Positions 1 through 6,183 of a stretch of 9,149 bases of DNA are shown here, piece after piece; position 1 is the first letter of the stretch; each line of letters starts with the position of its first letter. A program made the translations under genes and the position numbers. The notes under the pieces were generated by a model. That model was given only the letters and a program-made list of their open reading frames with translations, searched no databases and had not been told where the DNA came from. The DNA comes from an uncultured Caulobacterales bacterium (lineage in GTDB: Bacteria > Pseudomonadota > Alphaproteobacteria > Caulobacterales > Maricaulaceae). The DNA lies in the NCBI GenBank assembly GCA_938007945.1, contig CALLME010000066.1, forward strand, positions 1-9,149. The letters are read 5' to 3'.

Positions 1-2180
1 CGAAGAGGCTCTGGCGCGTCGGGCGTAAGAGATTCAAAGGAAATATCAAAGTTGGGCGCGGATTTATGAATATGCGGCGGGATGATAAAACCGCGCGTAA
101 GCCCCCTTTTTTTCGGCTTAATTTCGGTTGTGAATTTCTCGCCATTTATGGTGATTTGGCGCGTAATTTTAGGACCAGACCAAAACTTAAATTGAAGCAG
201 AAGGGTTTCTCCGGCTTTAGGGGGGCGCGTGAGTTTTATATTGAAGTCTAAAGCACCGTTCTCGGCGAGAATAAAATTATCATTCATCGTCACTTTTTTT
301 ACATCCGTGAAAGCGTTGAGAAAGTCTGTTTCGCTTTTCACCTCGCTGCCATAGCTAAGGGTTTCGCCAATTGTATAGCGATCTCTGTTTTCAAAGGGTA
401 TTGGGTCTTTTAAATACCCTTTATCGTTCCAAGAAGTGAGCGATCTGACATCACCATCAATCTCGAAAACTCGAAAGTCATTGAGATATTTGGAGTCCCA
501 ACTTGTGAAAGTATAGTACATATATTCGCGAGTGCGCGGCATGTCCTCGGATAGGCTGTGAATGTCCACGCCTTCAAACTCAAGTCCCTCTATACCAGCA
601 GCAGCCGCCAAAGTGGGGGCCACATCGACCCCAGACGTTGGCGCTTGGGAGCGCTTTAGCGGACCAGTTTCACCTGGATTTTTTACTAGCAGAAGAGACC
701 GAGCCGAAGCGCGTGTGTAACCAAATTTCTTTAGCGTCTCATAGCGTTTGGTGACGCCATTATATTGCTCACCGTTTGTCGCAGCCATGCCGTGATCAGA
801 TACGATGAGGATGGAGGCTTCATCATAAACACCTATGTCTTTCAACTGCGCAATGTAATCCCCCATAAGCTTAAGCGCTGCAATCGAATAAAGGCGGCTA
901 TTTTCAAAATTGTTTTCAAGCCTAACACTATTAAAATTCTCATCGAGTAAAACAGGGCCGTGGGGCAGTGAGAAATGATAAAACCGAAAAACAGGGTCAT
1001 CCATGGAGGGTTTTGCATGCTCCTTCATCAGGCTTTTAAAGCCTAAGGCGTCGTGCTTTTCCTTATAATCATATTTAAACGGTTGGGCAGATTGCGGTTC
1101 ACCCGTCAGTTTTTCTAAAACCTTTTTCGGCTTATCTCTTCGCGCTACAAAATTGCCTTTATTGAAAACTATGGATTTGAGTTGATGCGGCGCCGCGCGA
1201 AAAAACGAAAGATCAAGCGCTTGCAAATAGGTATCAATCTTGGCCCGACTTGGCGTGCCTGAAATGATATTATCCATGATATCAGGGTGCGCCGGAACGG
1301 CATTAACAAGGCTCGAATAAGCATCGACATTATGATACAATCCGACATCCCAGCCCTCTTTCTGTAGCGACTGCAGCAGCGAGCCCTTATAGGCCGTTTG
1401 AAAAAAGTCCAAAACAGGCTCTTCTTTGCGGTACACTTTGCCCGTCAAAAACAGCGGGATAGTCGGATAGGTTTTGGCAAAGGTTGCACTGTTGTTTTCG
1501 TAAAGCGTGAACCCCTCAAGTGGCTCCATTAATTCTGGGTGACTATCGGCGAGCTCTCGAAAGACATCCATTTGGTAGGCATCAAATAGAAATAGGAGGA
1601 CGTTTTTAGTCTTGGAAAAATTAAATTTGTCGCGCTCATCAATTGAGTAGGTAGAGTTTGCCTCGCCGTAATTAGCGATGTTTATTCCCGCCATGATGAA
1701 GGTGATGGCGCCAACACCGATAAGTATATTACCGGCCCAAGACCGAAGACGTTTTGCCGCAAAAACTGAGGCCAGGGCCGCAGTCAACCAAAGCAATAAA
1801 TCAAAAACGCCGAGACCATTGTTTTGAGAAAAATCTAAGGTTTGGCCATCAAGGATTCCGTAGTCCCAAGAGAGGAAGTTCTGCTGAATAAAAAGCATCA
1901 ATACGGCCGCCACAAGCAATGGCGCAAGTTTTTCTTTCAAACTTTTCGGCAATACAAATGCCACGAAAATCGAGGCCGCCGTTATCAAAATCATGATGAT
2001 TATGAGAACCGAATAGGAATGAGTGAGAGGGGCTTCGAAGTTAAACTTATTTCTAGTCCATACGGCAATAGGAAAGCTGATGAAGACTTGAAACAAGCAT
2101 AAAAATAAACTCAAAAAGAGTGACCACCTTCCAATCACATGGCCAGATTGTTTCTTTCTATTTCCTTTTGTAACATTCAT
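1..2180 (-). CDS. membrane-anchored sulfatase-like / alkaline phosphatase superfamily protein, partial (3' end off window)
   Basis: Reading from ATG at 2180 the frame stays open to the window edge, giving at least 726 residues without a stop. About five hydrophobic segments come first (roughly residues 17-40, 56-77, 83-101, 123-142 and 149-167). An extracytoplasmic hydrolase/transferase domain follows, with the metal-site Asp in LLFLFDAY (D200), a probable Thr nucleophile in AKTYPTIPLFLTG (T237), YHFSLPHGP (401-409) and VSDHG (460-464). From about residue 600 on there is a beta-rich C-terminal part. This layout resembles membrane phospho- or sulfo-transferases and hydrolases such as LtaS and the EptA group. 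There is no CxPxR formylglycine motif, so a true sulfatase is unlikely. Transfer or removal of a phospho-group on a surface polymer is inferred. The start is one base after the yidC-like stop, which suggests translational coupling; no clear Shine-Dalgarno is seen. The exact substrate is unknown. Confidence 0.85.
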   Translation of the reverse strand, partial: MNVTKGNRKKQSGHVIGRWSLFLSLFLCLFQVFISFPIAVWTRNKFNFEAPLTHSYSVLIIIMILITAASIFVAFVLPKSLKEKLAPLLVAAVLMLFIQQNFLSWDYGILDGQTLDFSQNNGLGVFDLLLWLTAALASVFAAKRLRSWAGNILIGVGAITFIMAGINIANYGEANSTYSIDERDKFNFSKTKNVLLFLFDAYQMDVFRELADSHPELMEPLEGFTLYENNSATFAKTYPTIPLFLTGKVYRKEEPVLDFFQTAYKGSLLQSLQKEGWDVGLYHNVDAYSSLVNAVPAHPDIMDNIISGTPSRAKIDTYLQALDLSFFRAAPHQLKSIVFNKGNFVARRDKPKKVLEKLTGEPQSAQPFKYDYKEKHDALGFKSLMKEHAKPSMDDPVFRFYHFSLPHGPVLLDENFNSVRLENNFENSRLYSIAALKLMGDYIAQLKDIGVYDEASILIVSDHGMAATNGEQYNGVTKRYETLKKFGYTRASARSLLLVKNPGETGPLKRSQAPTSGVDVAPTLAAAAGIEGLEFEGVDIHSLSEDMPRTREYMYYTFTSWDSKYLNDFRVFEIDGDVRSLTSWNDKGYLKDPIPFENRDRYTIGETLSYGSEVKSETDFLNAFTDVKKVTMNDNFILAENGALDFNIKLTRPPKAGETLLLQFKFWSGPKITRQITINGEKFTTEIKPKKRGLTRGFIIPPHIHKSAPNFDISFESLTPDAPEPL

Positions 2181-2181
2181 A

Positions 2182-3438
2182 TTAGGAATTTTTCATAGCT
2201 TTATTGGCGATGGATTGCAACAGAGTCGAAAGCGTCCAATAAAGTACCATGGCTGAGGGGAACGGATAAAAAATCAAAAAGAAAATACTGCCCATTAAAT
2301 ATAAATTTCGTTTTTGCCGCTGGGTTTCGCGAGGAGAGGCTGTCGCGCTCTTGAGCATATAGGCCGAGAAAAATGTCACCCCTGCCATAATAAATGGCAA
2401 TAAATTTAGGGTATGTCCAAATAGCGGAAGCTGTGTGCGCATATGGGCTAACGCATCGGGATAAGCCAAGCTTTCGACCCAAAGTGCTCCTGCACCGCGG
2501 AGGGGTTCCACTTCCCCCAGCATGTTAAATATGGCGATAAGAACAGGTAGAGATACCATCGTCGCAAGAAGAGGCTTGAGGCTGTAATAGGGCGTAATTC
2601 CGCGGGCCTTGTAAGCCGCCATGACCTTCTTATGAGCCGTCTCTCCTGTGAAGTTCTTTTTGATATTATCAAAGACCGGTTCTAACGCCGTTTTATGCGA
2701 GTTAGCCTGATTTTGTAAACGCGTTGTGAGCATAGCAATAGGCAATAAAATGAGCTTAATAACAACGGCAAACAGTAGCAAACTAAGCCCCCAACCAAAC
2801 CCTGTCACAGAATGAATACCTTTATAAAGCGTCTCTACTAAGTTACACAAAACCCGCATCCACCGCGGTAGATGAGAATATTGAAGTGTACGAATATCTA
2901 CTAATCCATCGGTGGCTGGCGGGAAGGAGCTGTCAGGCTTTCCGGTGATGATTGTTAAATCAGGCGTTACCCCTGCAGGCCATTTGATAGACAAGACCGT
3001 CGGCGTTATGCTGACCACGCCTGTTTCACTGCGCACGAGAATAGCTTTGAAACGCCCTTTAAAGCCTGTCCAGTCTCCATCGGATGTCACCGCTGTATCG
3101 TTCTTGAGTTTTATGACTGAGACGCGGCCATTCTCCAAAATTTTTACGGCTGGAGCCATACCTAAATAGACCGCCATACCACTATGCGCATATTCATCTT
3201 TCACACCGGACGATTGAACGTGTAATTCATAAATCAACGGCCCTTTTATAGGCTCCGCAAAGAAGAATTTTTTTAGAACTCCATCGCCTTGTACCGCCTC
3301 TTCTGTGACGGTAAAGTTGATTGAGGTGTCCGAAAATTGAGCGTAACTCACCGACGAGCTAAGCAAGACCATCAAGCAGGCTAAAAGAAGAACGCGAACT
3401 TTTTTTTGAGCAGAAAAGATTTTATCAAACACCAACAT
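2182..3438 (-). CDS. YidC/Oxa1-family membrane insertase paralogue with atypical N-terminal domain
   Basis: The 418-residue product starts with a signal peptide (basic start, hydrophobic 15-30, likely cleavage SYA|Q at 33/34). A beta-rich extracytoplasmic domain of about 160 residues follows, then the conserved insertase core. Core membrane segments lie near 212-236, 288-308, 343-363 and 379-410. The C-terminal segment has PSAMVLYWTLSTLLQSIA, matching the PAGLVLYW signature of YidC. A typical Gram-negative YidC is about 550-600 residues with a P1 domain near 300, so this one is short and its outer domain is not recognisably P1. In the first core segment the groove position usually held by Arg is Lys (K228 in VVIKLILLPIAML). 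It sits inside a glycopolymer-type operon instead of beside rnpA/rpmH, so it is probably a specialised second insertase and not the housekeeping YidC. The family call is firm; the specialised role is inference. Confidence 0.88.
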   Translation of the reverse strand: MLVFDKIFSAQKKVRVLLLACLMVLLSSSVSYAQFSDTSINFTVTEEAVQGDGVLKKFFFAEPIKGPLIYELHVQSSGVKDEYAHSGMAVYLGMAPAVKILENGRVSVIKLKNDTAVTSDGDWTGFKGRFKAILVRSETGVVSITPTVLSIKWPAGVTPDLTIITGKPDSSFPPATDGLVDIRTLQYSHLPRWMRVLCNLVETLYKGIHSVTGFGWGLSLLLFAVVIKLILLPIAMLTTRLQNQANSHKTALEPVFDNIKKNFTGETAHKKVMAAYKARGITPYYSLKPLLATMVSLPVLIAIFNMLGEVEPLRGAGALWVESLAYPDALAHMRTQLPLFGHTLNLLPFIMAGVTFFSAYMLKSATASPRETQRQKRNLYLMGSIFFLIFYPFPSAMVLYWTLSTLLQSIANKAMKNS

Positions 3439-4568
3439 TATTTTTGAACAAGCCGTAGGATTTCGCGCGCGCCTCTCTCGTCTGAATGGCCGACATTGTA
3501 AACATACTTTTCAGCCAAGTCGTGTGGCAATGGTTTCAAGTCTAACTCTAATATAGCGTCAAGATTGTCGGGGCTAATAACCGTTCCTATCGAGCCGCGA
3601 ATTTCGACTTCAAATGGCGCAATAGGGATGTCCTGATAATTTGGGTTATTCACCTTCCGCTCGACATCGATAAAAATCACTGGCTTACCCAAACCAAATG
3701 CGTAATCCAACGCTGCACCTGACCAGTCACATATCATGACATCTGATGCATGAAGCGAGCTTTGTCCTTCCACATTATTCTCATAGTCAAAATTGGGGTT
3801 GGCAGAGTATTTGCTAACAATTTCATCAACGCGTTTAGCTGCAAACTTTATAGTTTGCGGATGTGGGCGTAGCGTAACTTTCGCGTTCTTTGACAGTAAT
3901 AACGCAACAATTTTGGCCCCGACTCCAGTCTCTATCGTTCCGGCCGTCCCCCATGAAGGTGCTAGTAAAAAATGTTGCTGTGCCTGTGTTGTTGTTTTAT
4001 TTCCACGGCCACGTTCCGCCCCTTCTGCCATAATAGAATCAAGGCGCGCATATCCATGTTCAAATAGATTTTTGGGAGGTGTGTCAGAGAGGGCTTCTAT
4101 GGCCCTGATTTCTTTCATATGGTGTGGGCCAGCGCAGAAAATTGTATCATAAAAATCAAATGCACCAGGACGATAGACCATATGTAAACTCACAAGTGAG
4201 TGCTGGACATAGACATAGTGGACGGCGTGAGATGAACGTTTAACTTGATATTGCCCAAGATCAGGCATTGTCATGACAACAACATCTGTCTCCATGTTCG
4301 CAAACATCCAATCACGCACAAACCCTTCGCCTATTATAAAGCTATTTAAGCGGGGGTGCTCTATCTCTAATCCAGGGTCAGTCTTGGACGATGTAACGTA
4401 ACAGACATGAACGTCTGATGTACTTAATATGGTTTGCAGGAGACCCCCCAAGTAAGACCAATAATTCTTACCTTCCGAATAAATCGTGAGGCGGCGGTGT
4501 TCTTTGGGAAGCTGATTATACGCTATCACATTTTTAATGTGTAAAAAAAAAGCGCCAACCTTATTCAT
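3438..4568 (-). CDS. CDP-glycerol:poly(glycerophosphate) glycerophosphotransferase-like (TagB/TagF family)
   Basis: The 376-residue soluble or membrane-peripheral protein carries the family's motifs in order: YVQHSL (120-125), CAGPHHMKEI (145-154), HGYARLD (171-177), LLAPSWG (201-207), TLRPHPQT (232-239) and CDWSGAALDYAFGLGKPVIF (280-299). Family members use CDP-glycerol or related CDP-activated polyol phosphates to extend or prime teichoic-acid-like polymers. In Gram-negative bacteria they occur in capsule and LPS clusters. The length matches a single catalytic domain without the extra N-terminal repeats of long TagF proteins. The His residues of PHH and RPHP are the likely catalytic and phosphate-binding ones by family analogy. 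Its start overlaps the methyltransferase stop by one base (TAATG) and its stop overlaps the yidC-like start the same way, so the three are translated as a coupled set. The true donor sugar or polyol cannot be told from sequence. Confidence 0.87.
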   Translation of the reverse strand: MNKVGAFFLHIKNVIAYNQLPKEHRRLTIYSEGKNYWSYLGGLLQTILSTSDVHVCYVTSSKTDPGLEIEHPRLNSFIIGEGFVRDWMFANMETDVVVMTMPDLGQYQVKRSSHAVHYVYVQHSLVSLHMVYRPGAFDFYDTIFCAGPHHMKEIRAIEALSDTPPKNLFEHGYARLDSIMAEGAERGRGNKTTTQAQQHFLLAPSWGTAGTIETGVGAKIVALLLSKNAKVTLRPHPQTIKFAAKRVDEIVSKYSANPNFDYENNVEGQSSLHASDVMICDWSGAALDYAFGLGKPVIFIDVERKVNNPNYQDIPIAPFEVEIRGSIGTVISPDNLDAILELDLKPLPHDLAEKYVYNVGHSDERGAREILRLVQK

Positions 4569-5221
4569 TATTTCTTCTCGAAAACAAGTCGGCTAACATA
4601 GGGATCTTCTGATTTATATTTGGCCATACCGCGTCCTGTAAGCGCGTATTTTAGCTCAAATCCATATGTATGTGTTTGCGCCTCTATAAAAGCGTCCGTG
4701 TCTACAAAGCGCCGATAATGACCGCCAAACGTTTTCGCTAAATCTGCATCTTCTTTGGATCTGAATTCGAAATAGATTGTTTCGCCAAGCTTGATAAGTT
4801 TGCTTATGCTGGTGAGAAATAGGCGTTCTTGTTCATCATTAACTGAATGCATTACAAATCTTGAATAACAAACTACAGCACCCGCATTATTTGTATTCCT
4901 TGCGGCGTCAAACAACCGTTTTAAATCTTCGTGACTGGAGATATCCCCTTGCATGAATTGAGCTGTATTGAGCCCCAGTTTAGCAGCCGTTTTGCTACAA
5001 GATTTCACAGCTTCATGAGAGAGGTCTACGGCGCAGACATTATGTTGATGGCTAGCAAAATAAAGCGAGTCTCGCCCATTACCGCAACCTAGTTCAACAA
5101 CACAGGGACCTTTAGTGATTTCTGTCGCAACCATCGCGCAAAATTGCGACGGAACTGAAAGCGCGTTCTGTTTATAAAATTGTTCCCAATACTCACGATT
5201 TGATTTTACGTTATGATCCAT
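4568..5221 (-). CDS. class I SAM-dependent methyltransferase
   Basis: The 217-residue protein has a Rossmann methyltransferase core. Motif I is VVELGCGNGRDS (41-52) for SAM binding, the acidic end of strand 2 is VDLS with D66, motif III-like QGDIS has D93, and CYSRFVMHSV (118-127) fills the motif IV/post-IV place. The N-terminal NREYWEQFY helix is common in small-molecule methyltransferases of the Methyltransf_11/25/TehB type. The C-terminal part is too short for a nucleic-acid recognition domain. It lies between a small exported protein and a glycerophosphotransferase, so methylation of a polymer building block or of a chain end (as in chain-terminating methylation of O-antigens) is a reasonable inference, not something the sequence proves. 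The stop overlaps the next start by one base. Upstream, GGAAG lies about 11 bases before the ATG, a weak ribosome site. Confidence 0.85.
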   Translation of the reverse strand: MDHNVKSNREYWEQFYKQNALSVPSQFCAMVATEITKGPCVVELGCGNGRDSLYFASHQHNVCAVDLSHEAVKSCSKTAAKLGLNTAQFMQGDISSHEDLKRLFDAARNTNNAGAVVCYSRFVMHSVNDEQERLFLTSISKLIKLGETIYFEFRSKEDADLAKTFGGHYRRFVDTDAFIEAQTHTYGFELKYALTGRGMAKYKSEDPYVSRLVFEKK

Positions 5222-5275
5222 AGATATTAGGTCTTCCGCGCTTACGGCAAAATAATGTGATAGCGTTTGTTGAGG

Positions 5276-5488
5276 CTATGCGTCCGGCGGCGTCTCTGAA
5301 TCGTCTTTTGACCCGCCCGCAAAGAGTGCTTTAATCTTATACCAGAACGATTTTATGGTCAGGCCAATAACCACGAAAAAACCGATGATCGCTGACATGA
5401 TTGCGCTTCCTGAACCTGGGTCAATATAGGCGTGAGCTGTTGCGGGAATCGTCATAAAAATGAATATAAAGAATAAAAGTCCACGCAT
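5276..5488 (-). CDS. small exported membrane protein with YIDPGSGS motif
   Basis: This 70-residue protein has a signal sequence (hydrophobic 4-14, likely cut after AHA at residue 20). The predicted mature protein then begins directly with YIDPGSGSAI, followed by one transmembrane helix at about 28-47, a basic stretch (KSFWYKIKAL) and a polar acidic tail. Small proteins of this shape, with YIDPG[ST]GS just after the signal peptide, recur next to polysaccharide and sulfatase genes, but I know of no established function. It is the first gene of the leftward cluster, 54 bases ahead of the methyltransferase, and the candidate promoter lies just upstream. The signal-like N terminus, motif and gene context make it a real gene despite its length. 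Any role as an assembly factor or membrane partner of the cluster's enzymes is guesswork. Confidence 0.8.
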   Translation of the reverse strand: MRGLLFFIFIFMTIPATAHAYIDPGSGSAIMSAIIGFFVVIGLTIKSFWYKIKALFAGGSKDDSETPPDA

Positions 5489-6060: not shown

Positions 6061-6101
6061 AATAATAAAAAAAATCCTTGTAAGTCAAAGACTTACAAGG
6101 A
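6061..6101 (-). terminator. intrinsic terminator downstream of tRNA-Pro
   Basis: A perfect 11-bp stem (6075-6085 with 6091-6101) closes a 5-base loop (CAAAG on the plus strand). On the minus strand it is followed at once by an eight-T run and further T-rich sequence to 6061. It begins about 5 bases beyond the CCA end of the tRNA. I see no T-tailed hairpin between the MerR gene and the tRNA, so this terminator probably also ends read-through from the ihfA/merR side. Confidence 0.9.
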
Positions 6102-6106
6102 AATTT

Positions 6107-6183
6107 TGGTCGGAATAGCAGGATTCGAACCTGCGACCCCTAAGCCCCCAGCTTAGTGCGCTACCAGACTGCGCTATATTCCG
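6107..6183 (-). tRNA. tRNA-Pro (anticodon GGG)
   Basis: The 77-nt gene folds as a complete cloverleaf: acceptor CGGAATA/TATTCCG (7 bp), D stem GCGC/GCGC with loop AGTCTGGTA, anticodon stem CTAAG/CTTAG with loop CTGGGGG (anticodon GGG, G37), variable region GGGTC, T stem GCAGG/CCTGC with loop TTCGAAT, discriminator A and encoded CCA. It reads CCC and, by wobble, CCU. All stems are fully paired, so it looks functional. It follows the MerR gene by 73 bases and has its own promoter at 6201-6228. Its 3' end faces the non-core half of the window, the usual orientation for a tRNA used as an integration site. Confidence 0.97.

Follow-up and report, generated by a model that had tools for sequence, protein, structure and literature searches.

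What does a second copy of the membrane protein insertase YidC do when it is carried in a cluster of cell-envelope enzymes? This question is raised by a stretch of 9,149 nucleotides from an uncultured Caulobacterales bacterium (contig CALLME010000066.1), here called the window, which is contig C66 of a 2.0-Mb genome that is 70% complete. In the window, five minus-strand genes lying in the same direction span positions 3-5488, and the leftmost is truncated by the contig end. Their order from the first gene is as follows.

5276-5488, minus strand: YIDPGSGS mini-protein, 70 amino acids (aa)
4568-5221, minus strand: class I S-adenosylmethionine methyltransferase, in the exchangeable head-group slot
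3438-4568, minus strand: TagB-like transferase (PF04464), 376 aa
2182-3438, minus strand: accessory YidC, 418 aa, with a small N-terminal beta domain and the YidC core, Lys228 in the groove and no long C-terminal tail
3-2180, minus strand: membrane alkaline-phosphatase-superfamily enzyme (PF00884; LtaS/EptA/PbgA-like), 726 codons, 3' end cut by the contig edge

The YidC and TagB-like genes overlap by one base, as do the TagB-like and methyltransferase genes; a single base lies between the PF00884 and YidC genes, whereas the methyltransferase and mini-protein genes have a gap of 54 bases. The original prediction for this DNA had described five co-directional genes, four of them nearly abutting, which these coordinates bear out. 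From the sequence comparisons below, we consider that the accessory YidC is likely a fixed part of a membrane-spanning machine for the transfer of phosphate-containing head groups rather than a general protein inserter.

Identity of the accessory YidC

Two proteins of the window's genome matched PF02096, namely a canonical copy of 586 aa on contig C149 (182 bits) and the window copy (86.6 bits). The search for a second, canonical yidC that the original prediction had proposed was thus successful, and the C149 copy rules out the window's YidC as the only one of the genome. In the family searches, the window copy passed the PF02096 cut-off (84.8 bits against 35) and stayed below the cut-off of every listed NCBIfam YidC equivalog (best 90.8 bits against 670); the large periplasmic domain PF14849 was not listed for it in the Pfam domain search. 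Its predicted model (predicted local distance difference test, pLDDT, 91.5) matched the E. coli YidC structure 6al2 (E 2.1e-16, template-modelling score 0.55). A quick tree was made from 84 YidC cores (25 canonical, 25 split accessory, 8 of other cluster types, 3 very short and 23 fused), with rows chosen by us, midpoint root, no bootstrap and long branches among the very short rows. In this tree, the 25 canonical rows formed one side of a branch with a Shimodaira-Hasegawa-like approximate likelihood ratio (SH-aLRT) of 100 and no accessory row within, which leaves the window's YidC outside the canonical group. The fused rows also formed one side of a branch (SH-aLRT 100). The split accessory rows needed three changes, two of them straying; the window row was placed among other split accessory rows, and the rows of the kinase-methyltransferase-like cluster type (type 4) were nearest to the canonical clade.

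To our knowledge, the described members of the YidC/Oxa1 superfamily have been treated as protein insertases, and second copies are familiar, such as the pair SpoIIIJ and YqjG of Bacillus subtilis or YidC1 and YidC2 of Streptococcus mutans. With the YidC/Oxa1/Alb3 insertases the window copy shares the PF02096 core, the fold of E. coli YidC and a positive residue in the groove. It differs from them in standing outside the canonical clade, in its much smaller N-terminal domain and in being carried in an enzyme cluster, and its sister lineages are fused to a phosphatase-superfamily enzyme and have no groove charge. Among 72,556 plasmid records, 33 matched the window's YidC, with identities always under 60% and query coverage always below 80%; the 20 records listed were either named yidC or had no name. 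A genome from the same family as the window's has a short YidC of 220 aa beside its canonical one (L012; G027:C53:45995-46540).

Fused relatives and the groove charge

A tie between YidC and an envelope enzyme was seen in gene fusions. In one gammaproteobacterial genome (G187, locus L090), the mini-protein and TagB are fused into a protein of 433 aa, and the overlapping next gene encodes 830 aa consisting of a YidC core followed by the PF00884 enzyme. The same two fusions occur on two contigs of another gammaproteobacterial genome (G206; L086 and L087), and both genomes keep a canonical YidC. The 830-aa YidC fusion had 442 homologues; among the 120 listed (query included), 117 had both domains by profile, with YidC first in 117 of 117. 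The sources among the matches listed included Gammaproteobacteria, Bacteroidetes, Lachnospiraceae, Clostridiales and Spirochaetaceae. This search accepts proteins of 0.55-1.75 times the query length, so split forms are under-sampled among these homologues. In the predicted model of the fused protein, the stretch that links YidC to the outer domain, roughly residues 221-405, consists of long helices resembling membrane spans. The model matched PbgA, LtaS, EptA and YidC; the VIA-align structure list was dominated by sulfatase-fold entries and barely tested the YidC part.

The TagB fusion had 835 homologues. Among the 120 listed (query included), 116 had a YIDP-type motif near the N-terminus, in its strict form in 85. 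This motif stood behind a signal-peptide-like segment in 90 proteins (with Ala directly before it in 85 of the 90) and within the first 12 residues in 26. This arrangement suggests that the motif lies outside and TagB inside. Many TagB fusions (P0306-P0360) begin almost at once with YIDPASTSALLY and have no signal peptide; one named source among them was Bacteroidales (P0334). Several pairs of TagB fusion and YidC fusion appeared in the two tables on contigs of equal size, for example 15,521 and 1,542,691 bases. Plasmid-borne kin of one YidC fusion and one TagB fusion were sought in the same 72,556 plasmid records, with no match.

The fused proteins also differed at the groove position, Lys228 in the window, which was equated by motif with E. 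coli Arg366. Lys or Arg was found there in 116 of 116 split accessory YidCs (P0117-P0120 left out of this group) and in all 29 canonical YidCs from the window's genome and its relatives. In the fused YidCs it was found in 0 of 118, the residues being Asn in 61, Ser in 34, Thr in 17, Gln in 4 and Gly in 2 (P0137 has a gap at the position and P0144 has no YidC match). According to PMC8920935, all homologues strictly conserve this charge.

Recurrence of the cluster

Of 120 homologues of the window's YidC, 31 were aligned (A1), and a scan of a species-genome collection gave 37 loci. With the window added and L069 dropped, which had no YidC by profile, 37 loci (the window and 36 others) were compared. 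Family profiles were applied to these accessory-YidC loci, which are mostly proteobacterial. The mini-protein was found at 27, the PF00884 enzyme at 24 and a TagB-like gene at 23; the window-type methyltransferase was found at 10, a glutamine-kinase-like gene at 9, a kinase-methyltransferase-like gene at 6 and phosphoenolpyruvate (PEP) mutase at 4. The profiles were partly built from the same 37 loci, and these counts are therefore descriptive. In addition, BLAST clustering without profiles gave, for 38 loci, the PF00884 enzyme in 22, TagB in 22 and the mini-protein in 17. Where at least 5 kb was available on each side (21 loci), the counts were 17 for the mini-protein, 16 for the PF00884 enzyme and 15 for the TagB-like gene. 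TagB lay within 200 bases of the accessory YidC, on either strand, at 16 of the 37 loci. Conserved adjacency, which the original prediction had set as a check, is thus seen, and a one-off neighbourhood is ruled out by the recurrence across the 37 loci.

We also examined 31 whole genomes, the window's own and the source genomes of 30 of the 37 scanned loci (without L040, L052, L055, L063, L065, L068 and L069; L065 shares its organism with L033). PF02096 matched at least twice in 29 and once in two. The mini-protein was present in 28 and a TagB-like gene in 22. As an independent sample, 229 gammaproteobacterial genomes were searched, two of which (G076 and G083) were previously known to us. With a limit of E 1e-6, the mini-protein was found in 18, some of the matches being weak; with a limit of E 1e-25, the TagB-like family was found in 6. 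Each of these six genomes also had the mini-protein and a second PF02096 match. In the 18 mini-protein genomes, where PF02096 was looked up, two matches occurred in 8 and one in 10; the remaining two genomes with two matches carry a kinase-methyltransferase-like gene (L058 of G083 and L089 of G198). Thus, in this sample TagB implies a second YidC and the mini-protein does not. In the window's phylum the system is rare and patchy, with the TagB family in 2 of 398 genomes, one of them the window's own.

At L050, from the cultured marine bacterium Marinicella litoralis KMM 3900, the mini-protein, methyltransferase, TagB and YidC genes follow one another directly. Some loci showed other arrangements. 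At L040, L045 and L063 (Halieaceae/Halioglobus), the accessory YidC lies in a different recurring neighbourhood without TagB or mini-protein, and neither gene was found in the whole genome of L045. L066 and L068 (Hydrogenedentes) have a neighbourhood in common, in which a YidC of about 230 aa adjoins a gene with some 1100 codons. A very divergent YidC of 217 aa adjoins the kinase-methyltransferase-like gene of G198 (L089:9007-9660).

These distributions bear on the role that the original prediction gave to YidC, a dedicated insertase for one membrane part. On that account, the accessory YidC would insert the mini-protein, or fold the multi-span outer enzyme, and would take no part in chemistry or lipid movement. 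The window's YidC retains the YidC fold and Lys228, and in 25 of the 31 genomes the mini-protein and the accessory YidC are no more than 10 kb apart. Furthermore, the mini-protein (which matched no Pfam or NCBIfam family) consists of a signal-peptide-like segment ending in AHA, then YIDPGSGS, one hydrophobic segment and a basic tail. This layout is like that of M13 procoat, the classical YidC substrate, with its signal-like segment, short outer stretch, hydrophobic segment and basic tail. Because the groove charge is kept in the window and the mini-protein resembles a YidC substrate, this account keeps real weight. However, the 10 of 18 gammaproteobacterial genomes with mini-protein-like matches and a single PF02096 match (some assemblies incomplete, several matches weak, down to E 1e-7) make a second YidC seem unneeded for the mini-protein. 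Moreover, fusion to one enzyme in 117 of the 120 listed proteins and lack of the groove charge have no obvious reason in a factor for assembly only. A dedicated insertase is therefore possible and second best, since the fused YidCs are joined to the phosphatase-superfamily enzyme and have no groove charge, and on balance we hold it to be unlikely.

Enzymes predicted on the two sides of the membrane

The outer enzyme was aligned in 18 rows including the window. The nucleophile position was Thr in 15 and Ser in 3, with Thr237 in the window, and D200, H407, D462 and H463 were invariant; we take these four to be metal-ligand positions, as in LtaS. The original prediction called the enzyme sulfatase-like, which holds for the fold only, as the nucleophile position was Thr or Ser in 18 of 18 rows and never Cys. 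A true sulfatase of the formylglycine type was accordingly rejected. LtaS was among the sequence and fold matches of the outer enzyme, which scored only 21 bits with the LtaS family model NF053595 (cut-off 970), and the best match in the PDB by sequence profile was a phosphonate monoester hydrolase. Its outer domain thus has the fold, the Thr at the nucleophile position and the invariant Asp and His positions of LtaS, EptA and PbgA, and differs from them in staying under the LtaS cut-off and in having a YidC core as its partner or as part of the same protein.

The TagB-like protein passed the PF04464 cut-off (32.8 bits against 22.1), was 34-57% identical to 20 aligned relatives and matched no NCBIfam model. 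Against solved structures it gave nothing at E up to 1, either as a single sequence or as a profile. It belongs to the same Pfam family as TagB/TagF and is presumed, like them, to use a phospho-head-group activated by cytidine diphosphate (CDP) or monophosphate (CMP). It differs from them in that the sequence searches found no solved relative, in being anchored through YIDPGSGS in the fused forms and in the other donor modules of its relatives. The window's methyltransferase had only general methyltransferase matches in the PDB.

Exchangeable head-group modules

The slot between the mini-protein and TagB holds the methyltransferase in the window and three other genes at L037, L038, L041, L049 and L053. 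The module proteins were identified individually for L041 and L048. At L041, the slot has a 999-aa PPDK_N/PEP-utiliser protein (948 bits with NF004508, a 'hypothetical protein' model with a cut-off of 501). Beside it are a glutamine-amidotransferase whose best model is the gamma-glutamyl-CDP-amidate hydrolase NF045546 (E 6.4e-46, with 156.9 bits where the cut-off is 250) and a nucleotidyltransferase with a CTP:phosphocholine cytidylyltransferase (CTP, cytidine triphosphate) as its best PDB match. Together, the three resemble the enzyme set at the start of Campylobacter phosphoramidate synthesis, the glutamine kinase step of which is described in PMC6429109. Sister clusters resemble the Campylobacter O-methyl phosphoramidate capsule modification in having glutamine-kinase-like, nucleotidyltransferase and gamma-glutamyl-CDP-amidate hydrolase-like genes side by side; in contrast, all three are missing from the window, a TagB-like protein serves as transferase, and YidC and the outer enzyme are added. 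In the phosphoramidate-type clusters, a protein of about 450 aa after YidC (L041:10726-12084 and relatives) had only a weak formyltransferase match.

At L047, L048 and L054, a fusion of PEP mutase and cytidylyltransferase, a phosphonopyruvate decarboxylase and an iron-dependent alcohol dehydrogenase lie by TagB and YidC (at L047 on the other strand). The L048 enzymes scored above the cut-offs of the PEP mutase model TIGR02320 (399 against 319.55 bits) and the phosphonopyruvate decarboxylase model TIGR03297 (481.1 against 312.5), and this type of route should yield CMP-hydroxyethylphosphonate. Phosphonoglycan clusters likewise join PEP mutase to nucleotidyl activation and usually end in LicD-type transferases, whereas TagB, YidC and the outer enzyme stand at the end here. 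In some clusters there is a protein whose C-terminal part resembles a methyltransferase and whose N-terminal half looks, by eye, like a kinase; no PDB match was found for this kinase-like half. WbdD, a kinase-methyltransferase that caps O-antigen with methyl phosphate, has the reverse order. Since different gene sets fill the slot beside TagB, one conserved chassis seems to accept different small activated phospho-groups.

The modules bear on two further explanations. The original prediction regarded the system as teichoic-acid-like or as a phospho-glycan system. The teichoic-acid view would mean that TagB/TagF polymerises polyol phosphate and the LtaS-like enzyme acts outside. The PF04464 match above the cut-off and the LtaS matches of the outer enzyme agree with this view. 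However, the lack of any NCBIfam model for the TagB-like protein and the very low score of the outer enzyme with the LtaS model speak against it, and no CDP-glycerol synthase (TagD, TIGR01518) was found in the window's genome, which is 70% complete. In addition, the sister modules resemble phosphoramidate and phosphonate routes, which points to small phospho-head-groups and not to a polyol-phosphate chain. A teichoic-acid polymer was therefore rejected as the principal explanation and appears highly improbable. What stands of the original view of the cluster is an envelope phospho-transfer system with a second YidC locked in.

The other explanation is that TagB decorates a glycan in the cytoplasm, which then leaves through its usual exporter; outside, phosphodiesters would be hydrolysed or edited by the outer enzyme, for which YidC would be no more than an anchor. 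In Campylobacter, the related phosphoramidate is added to the capsule within the cell. Hydrolases occur among the PF00884 enzymes, a phosphonate monoester hydrolase is the best PDB match by profile, and an ABC-transporter-type (ATP-binding cassette) ATPase is a cluster member at five loci, L053 being one. Yet a full YidC core has no obvious reason as an anchor when the fused model is predicted to have span-like helices already, and we regard cytoplasmic decoration as improbable.

Proposed mechanism

The preferred reading is a relay through the membrane. The TagB-like enzyme would transfer a nucleotide-activated, phosphate-containing head group at the inner face of the inner membrane and load it on a lipid carrier. 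In other bacteria the mini-protein forms the N-terminal part of TagB fusions, and for this reason it may be the anchor that keeps TagB at the membrane, with YIDPGSGS probably facing outward. The accessory YidC and the outer enzyme would act as one unit: YidC would give the head-group lipid its path across the membrane, and the phosphatase-superfamily enzyme would pass the head group on to a surface glycan by way of a Thr-phosphoryl intermediate, like LtaS and EptA. In the window, the head group would be methylated. We infer the direction of the relay, its acceptor and the window's own donor. Such a relay is the simplest machine, because TagB should need its activated phospho-group inside and the outer enzyme should act outside, while co-occurrence links YidC to TagB and fusion links it to the outer enzyme. 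PMC10491306 reports that glycerophospholipids in liposomes are scrambled by E. coli YidC, and its authors locate this activity in the insertion channel; a lipid path through YidC is therefore plausible. For the relay as a whole, with TagB transfer inside, passage by the accessory YidC and delivery to a surface glycan by the outer enzyme, our confidence is a little short of even. More tentatively still, a branch of YidC/Oxa1 may have left insertion and become the membrane-crossing subunit of a phospho-head-group transferase, in which an anchored TagB loads a lipid, YidC flips it and the outer domain unloads it. This chassis would be fed phosphoramidate, phosphonate or methylated groups in several phyla, and the window would have its split form.

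Several points weigh against the relay. The window's own YidC keeps Lys228, therefore insertase activity is still possible for it. PMC8920935 also shows that YidC can do without the groove charge where an adjacent residue is hydrophilic or aromatic, and so its absence from the fused YidCs, as read from the alignments, marks a different constraint and is not proof of a different job or of lost insertion. Lipid scrambling may be a side effect of the YidC groove. A cytidylyltransferase that would activate the window's head group was not found. Nine of the 31 genomes have no TagB-like gene, and no partner family was found at 6 of the 37 loci (L040, L045, L063, L065, L066 and L068), of which L063 and L065 start at a contig end. 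Lastly, at L076, L079 and L080 the mini-protein, the kinase-methyltransferase-like protein and the PF00884 enzyme make up a sister cluster with no accessory YidC, so the outer enzyme works there without it.

Genomic context

The right part of the window carries minus-strand genes of core metabolism (plsX, fabH, an IHF/HU-type gene and a MerR-type regulator) and ends with a tRNA gene. The two features between these genes and the cluster are as follows.

6107-6183, minus strand: tRNA-Pro(GGG), which the cluster adjoins
6075-6101, minus strand: hairpin like an intrinsic terminator (12 pairs, T tail), separating the tRNA-Pro and core genes from the cluster

The cluster starts about 590 bases beyond this region. 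The G+C content was 49-53% in the core genes against 42-47% in the cluster. In the two relatives compared (G001 and G006; about 1.5 kb beyond merR covered), the next gene past the merR region was unrelated to the cluster in both. A tRNA-Pro was found at the matching region of G006, L114 and L119, and G001 had none. No close match to the window's YidC was found in 60 other genomes of relatives (best other 55.3 bits against 925). Because other genes follow merR in the relatives and the 60 genomes have no close YidC match, the cluster appears to have been inserted next to a tRNA gene.

Conclusion

In the literature searched, which covers few subscription papers, nothing was found on YidC in such a cluster or on a fusion of YidC with a phosphatase or sulfatase, as judged by titles and the openings of abstracts; the word 'sulfatase' does not occur in PMC8675477 or PMC7618853. 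Lipid scrambling by YidC/Oxa1 members in vitro is, in the words of the authors of PMC10491306, a so-far-overlooked role. A large family of envelope enzymes that incorporate a YidC core would offer a natural example of proteins for which the lipid path may be the job. If this is true, the annotation of proteins named 'membrane protein insertase YidC', a name found among the matches listed, would be corrected. Furthermore, the phosphoramidate, phosphonate and methyl-phospho chemistry of bacterial surfaces would be linked through one exchangeable unit for export and transfer.

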